Shown here: positions 16,415 through 37,523 of the stretch, piece by piece
How the letters are laid out: every line of letters starts with the position of its first letter
Numbering within the stretch: position 1 is the stretch's first letter
Source of the DNA: Thermoanaerobacter pseudethanolicus ATCC 33223
GTDB taxonomy: Bacteria; Bacillota; Thermoanaerobacteria; Thermoanaerobacterales; Thermoanaerobacteraceae
Reading direction: 5' to 3'
Length of the DNA stretch: 64,000 nucleotides
Assembly (NCBI RefSeq): GCF_000019085.1
Contig: NC_010321.1
Location: forward strand, 1,437,001 to 1,501,000
Notes under the pieces: generated by a model
Told to the model about the DNA's origin: nothing
Database searches by the model: none
The model's input: only the letters and a program-made list of their open reading frames with translations
Program-made: the position numbers and the translations under genes

Positions 16415-16914
16415 ATCGAGTAGGAGCTGAATAATTATTTTATTCAGCGTCCTCTCACACCACCGTACGTACCGTTCGGTATACGGCGGTTCATTAGGAA
16501 TTGTGTACAATTAGATATCTTTGGGATAAACTCTTATAACCTATGCTTTCAAAGTATTTATTTGTAAGAGTCTTATTTAGGATTGGGCTATTGGATATTC
16601 TCCAGTAGCCTTTCCTTGTATTGGCGTATTCCCAGGCTTTTTGTTCTTCTACTCCTAGTTTTACTAAGTTATCATGCTTCGTTTTTATCTTCTTCCATTG
16701 TTTCCATATACATGCCCTTAGTCTTCGCCTTATCCATTCGTCAAGGGTTTTCATTATGCTTTTCGCGTCTGCTAATCCAAAATAGTTGACCCATCCTGTT
16801 GTTATTTGATTTAGTCTTTTTATTCTGTTTTCCATGCTTATTCCCTTGTTCCGATTGGTTATTTCTCTTACTTTTTCCTTAAACCTTTTGATGGATTTTT
16901 CATGGATTCTTATT
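16415..16914 (-). mobile_element. 5'-truncated group IIC intron copy (3' 500 bp only)
   Basis: These 500 bases match the 3' end of the full intron at 31457-33368 with only two mismatches that I can see by eye. It contains intron domains V and VI (GCCGTATACC-GAAC-GGTACGTACGG, then GCTGAATAA/TTATTCAGC) and ends in CTCGAT, like the full copy. The match stops abruptly at 16914, exactly where the transposon begins. The catalytic 5' RNA and two thirds of the RT are missing, so it cannot splice or move by itself. Confidence 0.9.
16494..16914 (-). pseudogene. C-terminal fragment of group II intron reverse transcriptase
   Basis: About 140 codons equal to the last 30 percent of the intact RT at 31536-32948: the thumb/maturase (X) domain only, ending in the same stop. 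The RT active-site YADD segment is missing. No SD supports a new internal start, so it is a dead remnant. Confidence 0.88.
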
Positions 16915-31456: not shown

Positions 31457-33368
31457 ATCGAGTAGGAGCTGAATAATTATTTTATTCAGCGTCCTCTCAC
31501 ACCACCGTACGTACCGTTCGGTATACGGCGGTTCATTAGGAATTGTGTACAATTAGATATCTTTGGGATAAACTCTTATAACCTATGCTTTCAAAGTATT
31601 TATTTGTAAGAGTCTTATTTAGGATTGGGCTATTGGATATTCTCCAGTAGCCTTTCCTTGTATTGGCGTATTCCCAGGCTTTTTGTTCTTCTACTCCTAG
31701 TTTTACTAGGTTATCATGCTTCGTTTTTATCTTCTTCCATTGTTTCCATATACATGCCCTTAGTCTTCGCCTTATCCATTCGTCAAGGGTTTTCATTATG
31801 CTTTTTGCGTCTGCTAATCCAAAATAGTTGACCCATCCTGTTGTTATTTGATTTAGTCTTTTTATTCTGTTTTCCATGCTTATTCCCTTGTTCCGATTGG
31901 TTATTTCTCTTACTTTTTCCTTAAACCTTTTGATGGATTTTTCATGGATTCTTATTCTTACTTCGTTTTCTTTTGTGTAGAATGAAAATCCAAGAAATTT
32001 TCTTCTCCATGGTCTATCTACAGCACTTTTTGCTTCGTTGACTTTTAGTTTTAATTTGCTTTCTATGAATTTCTTTATGCTCTTCATTACTCTGTTTCCT
32101 GCAGACCTGCTTTTTACATATATGTTGCAGTCATCTGCATATCGGCAGAATTTATGCCCTCGTTTCTCAAGTTCTTTGTCTAGTTCGTCCAACATTATGT
32201 TTGCTAATAGGGGACTTAATGGCCCTCCTTGGGGTGTCCCTTCTTCTGTTGATACTTTGACTCCGTTTATCATTACTCCTGATTCTAAGTATCTTCTTAT
32301 TAACTTTAGTACTCTTTTGTCTCCTATCCGCTTTTCTAGTTTGGACATTATTATGTCGTGGTTTACTCTGTCAAAGAACTTTTCTAAGTCCATATCTACA
32401 ACCCATGTATATCCTTCATTTATATATGCTTCTGCGGCTTTTATTGCGTCTTTTGCACTGCGTCCTGGTCTAAATCCATAACTGCTATCAGAAAATGTAT
32501 GGTTGTAGACTCTATTTAGTATTTGGGCTATTGCTTGTTGTATTAGCCTATCTAGTGCTGTAGGTATTCCTAGTAGTCTTACTCCTCCATCTGGTTTGGA
32601 AATTTCTACTCTTCGCACTGGTTGTGGTTTGTATTTCCCCTCCAGCAGTTGTTGTTTTATGGTTGCCCAGTTTTCTTTGAGATACGGTAGAAGTTCATCT
32701 ACTTCCATCCCATCGACTCCATGGCTTCCTTTATTTGCAACAACGCGCTTGTATGCTGCTTCCATGTTCCCTCGTTCTACTATCATTTCAAGCATCTTGC
32801 TGGTATATCTTTGTACATCGTTTCTTCTATCTTTTGACGCCGATGATATACTATGCACTTCCGTTGTCTTTTGAAATTCCATTTCTCTATTCAACGGATA
32901 GCCTCTTTGTTGAGTTGTCTGCAGTCTCTGCATATCTTTCGAGTCCATAAGATTTCCAAAACCTCCTAACGTTCGGCCCTTCCTTATCTATTCATGACTA
33001 GATAAGTACTATGACCTCTGCTGACTTCTCAAGGTTCAACCATACATCACTGTATGGGTTGTCACTTCAGAGTTCACTTTAGTGACTTGTCCTTGAGACC
33101 TCCCCGGGTAAGAACGATAACTTTCATCTCATATATCTGCCAGATTTACTGTATGGGATTCGGGTAGTGTTGGACTTCGTTTTGTTACGCAAACTCATCC
33201 ATCCCAATTCAGCCTCTTATCTGGTTCTTGTTCATCAGACCGAGATTTTGCCTTAAGCTTCCTTCAGATTCCACCTCACGATGGACACCCTTGCTTTTGG
33301 CTAGTGGTTCCCACTACCAAGCCCACAGCGGACTTTCACCGCCTAGCTATCGCCCATGCCGGGCGCAC
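31457..33368 (-). mobile_element. Complete group IIC intron
   Basis: 1912 bp. The 5' border GTGCGCCCGGC (from 33368) fits the group II GUGYG start; the 3' border is CTCGAT after domain VI. Domains V/VI lie at 31457-31535 and are the same as in the truncated copy. About 420 bases of 5' ribozyme RNA (32949-33368) contain no gene. The intron lies a few bases after the obg terminator hairpin, the classic target of class C introns, which use the stem and T-tract for recognition. Confidence 0.93.
31536..32948 (-). CDS. ltrA: Group IIC intron reverse transcriptase/maturase
   Basis: 470 residues. RT domains include VVDMDLEKFFDRVNHD (RT3), EEGTPQGGPLSPLLANI (RT4), FCRYADDCNIYVKS with the YADD active site (RT5), and KFLGFSF (RT7); then the maturase/thumb (MENRIKRLNQITTGWVNYF). 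There is no C-terminal HNH endonuclease, as in class C. The sequence is close in pattern to the thermostable Geobacillus GsI-IIC RT, from memory. A roughly 40-residue N-terminal extension (MDSKDMQRLQTTQQRG) precedes the usual start. AGGAGGT is 12 bases before the ATG. Confidence 0.95.
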   Translation of the reverse strand: MDSKDMQRLQTTQQRGYPLNREMEFQKTTEVHSISSASKDRRNDVQRYTSKMLEMIVERGNMEAAYKRVVANKGSHGVDGMEVDELLPYLKENWATIKQQLLEGKYKPQPVRRVEISKPDGGVRLLGIPTALDRLIQQAIAQILNRVYNHTFSDSSYGFRPGRSAKDAIKAAEAYINEGYTWVVDMDLEKFFDRVNHDIIMSKLEKRIGDKRVLKLIRRYLESGVMINGVKVSTEEGTPQGGPLSPLLANIMLDELDKELEKRGHKFCRYADDCNIYVKSRSAGNRVMKSIKKFIESKLKLKVNEAKSAVDRPWRRKFLGFSFYTKENEVRIRIHEKSIKRFKEKVREITNRNKGISMENRIKRLNQITTGWVNYFGLADAKSIMKTLDEWIRRRLRACIWKQWKKIKTKHDNLVKLGVEEQKAWEYANTRKGYWRISNSPILNKTLTNKYFESIGYKSLSQRYLIVHNS

Positions 33369-36123: not shown

Positions 36124-36495
36124 CTAAAGAGTTTGTGTTCCTTTTTCTTCCTCCTCTTCCTTGGCATCGCTTTGTTCTTTTGTTTTTTCTTCCGCTAATT
36201 TATAGTTTTGTAATTCTATAACCTTTTGATTCAATTCTTCCTTTTCTTTTTCCAACTCTTTTATCCTATTGTTAAGTCCTCTTATCGTTACGCTATAGCG
36301 AATTTGTCCAAACAAACCTATTGTCCCCACAATTATAGCTCCAATAGCTGCTGACAATAAAATTACTAAAGCTTGAGAAATTGAATAATGCCAATACAAA
36401 AAACTTATATCCACAGGTCCAGCATTAGAAATAGCAAAAATCGCTACTATAATTGCGAATATCAAAGCTAATATTGTATAATATTGCCCCTTCAC
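36124..36495 (-). CDS. LapA-domain (DUF1049) membrane protein
   Basis: 123 residues from GTG 36495 (MKGQYYTILALIFAI), eight bases after GGAGG; the longer frame to 36525 starts before the SD. Two membrane segments (residues 5-25 and 39-62) separated by NAGPVDISFLYWHYSIS, then a coiled coil (RGLNNRIKELEKEKEELNQ) and an acidic tail. Typical of Firmicutes LapA-like proteins, function poorly known. Confidence 0.82.
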   Translation of the reverse strand: MKGQYYTILALIFAIIVAIFAISNAGPVDISFLYWHYSISQALVILLSAAIGAIIVGTIGLFGQIRYSVTIRGLNNRIKELEKEKEELNQKVIELQNYKLAEEKTKEQSDAKEEEEEKGTQTL

Positions 36496-36665
36496 AAAAT
36501 TCACCTCCCCCATCTTCAGTAACACTCATTAACACCTTTCTACCTTTATGATAAATTATACAAATTATTATTGTCAATAAAAATTATAAATTTTTCGATA
36601 ATAATAAAACATCATTCTTAACTTTTATCATTTGATTGAGAGAAAAACTGTCCGTGTAAAATTTC

Positions 36666-36907
36666 AGTAGGTAAGGCTAAGTAGCTGACATTTTGCCAGC
36701 TCGCTCCGGTGACATCGCAGGCTAAACTAGCGCTTAACCTCGGACTCCGGCGGGGTTCCTGGCCCATTCGGCGTCCTTGCCTCAGGGGCCAGCCTCCGGC
36801 ATCCTTGCCTCCGGCCCCGCCTACGTCTTTCGGTCTCGCTGAGTTTAGCAACTGCTCTGTCAAGTCGCTTCTCTTGTGCAAAATGTCAGCTGAATGCGTC
36901 ACCTACT
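36666..36907. ncRNA. GC-rich, strongly folded 242-bp element (possible HEARO-like RNA or MITE)
   Basis: 59 of 80 bases in 36741-36820 are G or C, unlike the surrounding AT-rich DNA. Nested complementary arms: AGTAGGT/ACCTACT (36666-36672, 36901-36907), a 14-bp perfect pair 36683-36696/36878-36891, GCTAAACT/AGTTTAGC (36721-36728, 36842-36849), GGCGGGG/CCCCGCC (36749-36755, 36815-36821) and CTGGCCC/GGGCCAG (36759-36765, 36786-36792). No convincing protein frame. The minus-strand sequence contains TAAACTCAGCGAGACCGAAAG, which reminds me of HEARO RNAs that accompany IsrB HNH proteins; this is from memory only. It fills most of the gap between the LapA gene and queT. Confidence 0.6.
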
Positions 36908-36940
36908 AATTCTTGACACGAACGAGAAAAAGTTTTTATG

Positions 36941-36970
36941 TTGAAACTACTCCAGTAGTTGTGTTAAAAT
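36941..36970 (+). promoter_or_regulatory. Promoter of queT-queF
   Basis: TTGAAA (36941-36946), 18-base spacer, TAAAAT (36965-36970). The spacer holds the small dyad ACTACTCCAGTAGT. Confidence 0.6.
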
Positions 36971-36995
36971 TGATTATAGTGAGCAAAATGCTCAC

Positions 36996-37030
36996 CTGGG
37001 TCGCAGTAACCCCAGTTAACAAAACAAAGG
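36996..37030 (+). ncRNA. preQ1-I riboswitch
   Basis: CTGGGTCGCAGTAACCCCAG then TTAACAAAACAAAGG: stem CUGGG/CCCAG, ligand loop, and the A-rich tail that folds back as an H-type pseudoknot. It matches what I remember of the T. tengcongensis preQ1-I aptamer, which regulates translation. The tail runs into the queT SD (AAAGGAGG, 37026-37033), so preQ1 should hide it. A separate hairpin GTGAGC/GCTCAC (36980-36995) lies just upstream. Confidence 0.95.
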
Positions 37031-37040
37031 AGGTAATTTT

Positions 37041-37523
37041 GTGTCCAAAAAAAGAATAAAAGATCTAGCAGAAATTGCTCTGGTCGCGGCAATTTATTTT
37101 GTACTCACAGTTATATTTTCTTCCATTTCTTTTTTACCCCTTCAGTTTCGCGTAGGGGAAATTACAAAATCCATTGTAGTATTCAACAAAAAATATGCTA
37201 TTTCCATGATGATAGGAAATTTTTTTGCAAATTTGTTTAGCCCATTTGCTGGCACAATGGAGCTAATTTTTATGCCTCTCTCAAACTTAATCGGTTGTAC
37301 AATTGGATACTACATTGGAAGAGTTACTCACAAATTGGTAGGGGCTGTATTTGTAGCTCTTTGGATTGCTGCATCGGTAGGAATCACCTTAAATGTCTCT
37401 GCCAATATACCATTTATTCCAACTTTCTTAAGCGTAGGATTGGCTGAGACTGTACTTCTTGTAACTGGATATTTTCTGCTTTTTATAATTGAAAAGAAAG
37501 GAGCTGTGAAATTTGACAGATAA
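37041..37523 (+). CDS. queT: QueT queuosine-precursor ECF transporter S-component
   Basis: 160 residues from GTG 37041. Five to six hydrophobic segments with [20 protein letters not shown], the QueT pattern; the substrate is preQ1/preQ0-type, as the upstream preQ1 riboswitch confirms. AAAGGAGG gives the start. Translationally linked to queF, which begins inside its 3' end. Confidence 0.93.

Follow-up and report, generated by a model that had tools for sequence, protein, structure and literature searches.

A GC-rich nested hairpin between two divergent genes

The question raised by this locus is whether a strongly folded stretch of the Thermoanaerobacter pseudethanolicus chromosome should be read as a structured RNA, as folded mobile DNA, or as both. 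The hairpin has a GC content of 0.58, against 0.34 in the window, as we call the whole 64-kb stretch of DNA that was analysed; its richest 80-mer holds 60 G/C, and among the matches listed for the window all ten 80-mers with at least 59 G/C lie inside the hairpin. The two strands of 36666-36907 fold with z = -8.46 and -8.21 relative to dinucleotide shuffles (0 of 200 shuffles were as good), which bears out the GC-rich nested-hairpin element of a preliminary description of this DNA; the motif TAAACTCAGCGAGACCGAAAG is also present on the minus strand, as claimed there. Of the five nested, perfectly complementary arms that it reported, the nesting stands and the perfection does not: the arms contain conserved internal loops and, near the tip, a three-way junction. 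The boundaries lie slightly further out, at 36650-36923, flanked by GAGAAAAACT and GAGAAAAAGT, and the whole 274 bp form a nested hairpin fold with z = -10.5. The features are as follows:

36640-36649, no strand: left target-site duplication GAGAAAAACT, 9/10 identical to 36924-36933
36650-36923, no strand: whole non-autonomous mobile element with ISLre2-type ends, 274 bp (empty orthologous sites; fold)
36650-36674, plus: left terminal inverted repeat GTCCGTGTAAAATTTCAGTAGGTAA, matching an intact ISLre2 transposon (1.73 kb) of the same genome at its end GTATAAAATTTCAGTAGGTGATG
36682-36895, minus: GC-rich structured core common to ISLre2-type and IS1182-type elements (genome copies; compensatory changes)
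36749-36821, minus: 73-nt three-way-junction domain, a divergent TwoAYGGAY centre (alignment with 48 relatives; weak RF01731 match)
36749-36755 with 36815-36821, minus: stem P1, closing the 73-nt domain
36759-36792, minus: hairpin P3, with a 7-bp stem, a CTGA/GAAT internal loop and the tip GGC-AAGGAC-GCC (model R1)
36793-36814, minus: hairpin P2, with the apical loop AAGGAU closed by C-G and a GGA/GGA internal loop (sequence; loop rule of the genus copies)
36899-36923, minus: right terminal inverted repeat GTTCGTGTCAAGAATTAGTAGGTGA, the left end inverted; the other ISLre2 end is GTGTCAAGATTTTGTAGGAGA
36924-36933, no strand: right target-site duplication GAGAAAAAGT (sequence)

A coding reading was rejected, the open reading frames on both element strands having no Pfam match. 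A phage or plasmid origin was likewise discarded: searches of phages and plasmids returned nothing similar to the element, and the exact apex motif was absent from the viral contigs searched.

The neighbours of the element are two divergent genes, one with a LapA domain (36124-36525, minus) and queT (37041, plus), and the insertion leaves the promoter-like sites of both intact. On the queT side, a possible outward promoter at 36913-36942 would combine TTGACA, contributed by the element's right end, with TATGTT 18 bases further along; the native TTGAAA/TAAAAT pair lies beside it at 36941-36970. Directly upstream of queT (37041-37523; Pfam QueT, E 1e-28), the PreQ1 riboswitch model matches 36991-37034 below threshold (23.7 bits, E 0.015); in all likelihood this is a true preQ1 riboswitch that narrowly misses the Rfam cut-off. 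Elsewhere in the window, group II intron pieces (RF02001, RF01998, RF00029) occur at 31457-33285 and 16415-16491, including two domain V copies of identical score about 15 kb apart.

The element is mobile and carries ISLre2-type ends

Three related genomes (G001, G004 and G006) lack the element at the orthologous site, where its two sides are joined, with flanks of 78-98% identity; the empty site in G001 reads TTGATAGAAAAAGTTTTT, a single copy of the target sequence. The insertion is therefore recent. The 10-bp target duplications of the window copy are imperfect, 9 of the 10 positions agreeing between GAGAAAAACT and GAGAAAAAGT. Its ends, GTCCGTGTAAAATTTCAGTAGGT and GTTCGTGTCAAGAATTAGTAGGT, match those of a 1733-bp transposon that is present intact in this genome and encodes a transposase of 480 aa (Pfam UPF0236; NCBIfam ISLre2 NF033529, 348 bits, cut-off 200). 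The two have in common the terminal inverted repeats GTNNGTGTAAAATTTCAGTAGGTGA and a 9-10 bp duplication, but the window element has no transposase gene and holds a structured core instead. The window copy is thus an ISLre2-type MITE: it has the terminal inverted repeats of an autonomous ISLre2, a target duplication and an empty site in relatives. It is non-autonomous, and we suggest that it would be mobilised in trans by an ISLre2-family transposase.

BLAST of its own genome finds the element in 20 places, at least 12 of them substantial copies of the core. This contradicts the single-copy case considered in the preliminary description, as the relationship of the homologues to RF01731 (see below) contradicts the case of no Rfam hit; its broader expectation of a structured RNA or a folded mobile DNA is borne out on both counts, the element being structured-RNA-like and mobile, with many copies. 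At other sites in the same genome short solo arms occur, and these look like deletion products because one site that is short here has the full element in G004 and G009. Literature searches by sequence string and for Thermoanaerobacter MITEs returned nothing relevant.

Two known kinds of repeat were considered and set aside. REP/REPIN sequences are palindromes of 20-40 bp with a GTAG-type tag and a linked TnpA-REP gene; the present element is 274 bp long, has terminal inverted repeats and a target duplication, and lacks a recurrent linked gene. HEARO RNAs insert without target duplication or inverted repeats and have an HNH/IsrB partner gene. An orphan copy of such an IsrB-associated RNA had been proposed for this locus, and the general resemblance (GC-rich, structured, mobile) is real. 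The absence of a nearby HNH gene, also noted then, was confirmed, with no IscB/IsrB-type gene nearby and LapA-domain and QueT genes as neighbours. However, RF02033 gave no match at the gathering threshold or at E up to 1 and 10, the homologues match a different Rfam family (RF01731), and the presence of target duplications and terminal inverted repeats speaks for transposition of the DDE type. The element is no orphan either, given its ISLre2 ends and the intact ISLre2 in the same genome, and we consider a HEARO origin hardly conceivable.

The same core travels in a second transposon envelope

About 19 further elements of the same genome have the same GC-rich core and different ends, CAG[AT][CT]TGT.GACAAA. 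In the related genome G008 these ends bound a transposon of 1560-1566 bp (eight copies examined) whose transposase belongs to the IS1182 family (NF033551, 490 bits). Insertions of this type show a duplication of at least 15 bp in 34 of 52 cases, and hairpins with stems of 6 bp or more are present in 79 of 104 flanks, compared to 2.3% in shuffles. The targets are intrinsic terminators, and the duplicated unit is the entire terminator hairpin of 17-32 bp, for example ATCTGCAAAGGTTTCTTTGCAGAT on both sides. Since whole terminators are duplicated, the terminator of the target gene is kept intact. In G008 the IS1182-family transposon and its MITEs (L137-L144, L145-L156) lie in terminators, and a terminator remains on each side. 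At L030 (388355-388620 of the own genome), the terminator hairpins on the two sides now differ, their stems having changed in pairs, which suggests that both may still be functional.

Terminator targeting is also known for IS1272, of the same family as IS1182, where the stem-loop is replaced (PMC4923244); a model for IS1272 also draws a variant with duplication (PMC5678879). The sister elements with our core are similar in having IS1182 ends and inserting in terminator hairpins (PMC4923244, PMC5678879), whereas IS1272 replaces or deletes the stem-loop and the elements described here duplicate the hairpin, all 17-32 bp of it, so that each side has a copy. The window copy does not belong to this group.

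Conserved structure, and loops that outlast their stems

Copies of the core elsewhere in the genome are 82-85% identical. Across 53 genus-level and sister-genus copies, 61 pairs were found independently on both strands, about 93% of them Watson-Crick, with many compensatory changes. Model R1 matches P3 at exactly 36759-36792 on the minus strand (54.3 bits). The P3 covariation of 0.753, against 0.164 in shuffles, is inflated because only sequences with 5 or more of the 7 pairs entered the set; the unselected count is the comparison of the stem of about 7 bp. A scan of genome contigs for the apex motif found 85 stretches, in Lachnospiraceae, Moorella, Desulfovirgula, a Thermoanaerobacteraceae MAG and a few Gammaproteobacteria. 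In unrelated lineages the P3 stem has a completely different sequence, still about 7 bp long, with an invariant tip. Neighbour genes did not recur among 85 loci, except for local orthology in Moorella and open reading frames inside the repeat. In a sister genus (L113-L117) a single core copy occupies an apparently conserved place beside a glycerate-kinase-like gene and is possibly domesticated. In the MAG genome G020, a THF riboswitch (L120 517-612, 78.5 bits) lies about 100 bases from a TwoAYGGAY-like element.

A selfish repeat in neutral decay, whose paired changes arise by template switching between palindrome arms and not by selection, would account for the symmetric G-U and A-C counts given below, for the rarity of GU, and for the common fragments and solo arms. 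It fails at the loops: across families the unpaired loop positions are conserved better than any other part, the stems change completely, and template switching cannot preserve loops. We thus regard neutral decay as very improbable.

Which strand, and is the structure needed as DNA or as RNA?

Counted over the 61 shared pairs, G-U on the plus strand (59) is as frequent as A-C (67, equivalent to G-U on the minus strand), so that the pairing has no strand preference. The unpaired bases do discriminate, in favour of the minus strand. In the 53 copies GGA occurs 374 times on the minus strand (7.06 per copy) and 36 times on the plus strand (0.68 per copy), and it is the commonest unpaired trinucleotide of the minus strand. 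Read on this strand, the core has purines at its junction and in its internal loops (GAA, GA/GA and CTGA/GAAT). The genus copies follow the loop rule C-A-N-GGA-N-G, with N free, in 49 of 53 cases for P3 and 47 of 53 for P2 (there as C-A-N(0/1)-GGA-N-G). The P2 loop, which had no part in the locus search, mostly retains GGA in distant families, with CGA in its place in some Lachnospiraceae. Outside P3, 41 diverged loci have 174 GGA against 65 TCC, a difference that belongs to a general purine bias of the minus strand.

Insertions show no orientation bias towards neighbouring genes (7 vs 6 for the IS1182 type, 6 vs 6 for the ISLre2 type). A minus-strand promoter-like pair, TAGACA-17-TATTTT, is kept at the right end only in one IS1182-type subfamily (21 of 31 elements) and is absent from the window copy. 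The missing G-U strand bias, orientation bias and shared promoter call for caution on the RNA reading.

These observations bear on the view that the structure matters as DNA only, as a cruciform or single-strand hairpin that aids transposition or as a landing pad for hairpin-targeting insertion sequences, with no RNA function. The pairing without strand preference and the unbiased orientation of insertions fit this view, as do the hairpin targets of IS1182 insertions and a nested element, CCCGGCACTCAA...TTGAGTGCCGGG, which was observed at the same position inside several cores (L015, L034, L086-L088, L094). However, the GGA bias is strand-specific (374 vs 36), only one strand has the tandem GA loops, and the rule that the loops follow fits a known RNA-protein site; moreover, one and the same core is combined with two unrelated kinds of transposase and is therefore not something that one transposase needs. 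A purely DNA-level role thus seems unlikely to us, while deserving some weight.

A divergent relative of TwoAYGGAY RNA

TwoAYGGAY has been an RNA without known function since 2010. At the gathering threshold an Rfam scan of the window copy gave no match; below it, RF01731 (TwoAYGGAY) aligns its twin-hairpin part to 36761-36815 on the minus strand (19.4 bits, E = 1.5; gathering cut-off 43 bits). Matches to HOTTIP_2 and NPPA-AS1 were dismissed as chance, and no other Rfam family is supported for this copy. Six homologous loci from other Bacillota, two of them BLAST homologues of the window core (L118, L122) and four distant relatives (L158, L259, L266, L268), reach or exceed the RF01731 gathering score, at 52-128 bits and on the same strand and position as the window core. 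The window copy is therefore a divergent TwoAYGGAY relative by homology, not a member by score.

With the TwoAYGGAY RNA (Weinberg 2010, PMC2864571) the core shares a pair of hairpins that have conserved loops of the ANGGAN type and rise from one stem, and the strand is the same in both. Of the A-Y-GGA-Y loop, the window loops AAGGAU and AAGGAC keep the GGA and the flanking A, with A and not Y in second position, where the genus copies have A, U, G or C. Tandem GAs, noted for TwoAYGGAY (PMC4333381), are present as well: CTGA/GAAT is invariant in P3, and P2 has GA/GA or GGA/GGA. The Thermoanaerobacter copies differ in scoring below threshold, in their GC-rich compact junction, in allowing G, C or A at the N positions of the loop, and in sitting inside MITEs. 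No earlier report of TwoAYGGAY mobility was found in the literature searched; the mobility of this RNA type, its two transposon envelopes and the csrA co-occurrence described below are new here, and can be read, like the conserved structure and loops and the homology itself, from the sequences.

The cargo could instead be a TwoAYGGAY-derived RNA that acts in cis, at the 3' ends or leaders of its neighbours. RF01731 is typed Cis-reg in Rfam, and IS1182-type copies lie in terminators, hence at 3' ends. Against this, the 85 loci share no recurrent neighbour gene, insertion orientation is unbiased, and the rating for cis-regulation in Weinberg 2010 was 'n' (PMC2864571). We consider a cis role improbable and give it little weight; a free, minus-strand RNA remains our preferred reading of the cargo.

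A candidate CsrA-binding RNA

RNA antagonists of CsrA are documented mainly from Gammaproteobacteria, and B. subtilis uses the protein FliW. In the genome studied here csrA adjoins fliW. The ANGGAN hexaloop is the binding site of RsmE/RsmN (PMC3791407, PMC7652899), and both loops of the element agree with the consensus for CsrA-binding sRNAs given in these studies, namely paired hairpins with an apical GGA in C-ANGGAN-G. The P2 loop AAGGAU is identical to that of RsmZ hairpin 2, which has been solved with RsmN (PMC3791407). TwoAYGGAY has already been proposed as a CsrA-binding sRNA (Gardner 2014, PMC4333381), at a time when CsrA-sequestering sRNAs were stated to be known only from Gammaproteobacteria (PMC4333381).

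Like CsrB, CsrC, RsmX, RsmY and RsmZ, the element presents GGA in C-G-closed hairpin loops, with the same AAGGAU loop as RsmZ-2 (PMC3791407), and each copy holds several extra GGA triplets. Unlike those sRNAs, which have many hairpins per RNA, it has two strong ones, and it is multi-copy and mobile, without a known regulator or promoter; scans of the window and homologues gave no covariance-model match to the CsrB/RsmX/Y/Z families.

In a sample of 398 genomes searched with the P3 model and Pfam CsrA, the lists being matched by eye, csrA is present in all 47 genomes with the hairpin (in G037 as a weak match only), compared to 292 of 398 overall (hypergeometric 1.6e-7; by genus 1.6e-5, ancestry being uncorrected in these statistics, so that lifestyle or phylogeny may confound the association). 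In a second set csrA was found in 39 of 41 genomes with the element.

Based on this, we suggest, with a probability of about two in three, that the element is an ISLre2-mobilised MITE that carries a divergent TwoAYGGAY RNA on its minus strand as cargo and acts as a dispersed CsrA-binding sponge. The domain would be read from the minus strand, and its RNA, folded as a three-way junction, would present two C-ANGGAN-G hairpins at a distance of about 28 nt, and each of these could fill one RNA site of a CsrA dimer; the copies together could then act as dispersed CsrA-binding RNA. Minus-strand transcription, CsrA binding, and titration of CsrA or other help to the element are steps that we infer.

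Implications

In this genome a fliW-csrA pair occurs together with candidate RNA antagonists of CsrA. A life as transposon cargo would also explain the scattered, multi-copy distribution of TwoAYGGAY without a fixed neighbour gene; a regulatory RNA appears to spread by hitch-hiking in transposons. More tentatively, and as a conjecture that we would not yet favour, at least two unrelated transposon families may carry CsrA-binding RNA as portable cargo, so that sponges would travel as mobile DNA, inside a genome and from one Bacillota genome to another, and a global regulator would be reset with changes in their copy number. Strains that differ in the copy number of the element would offer a testing ground for the CsrA idea.
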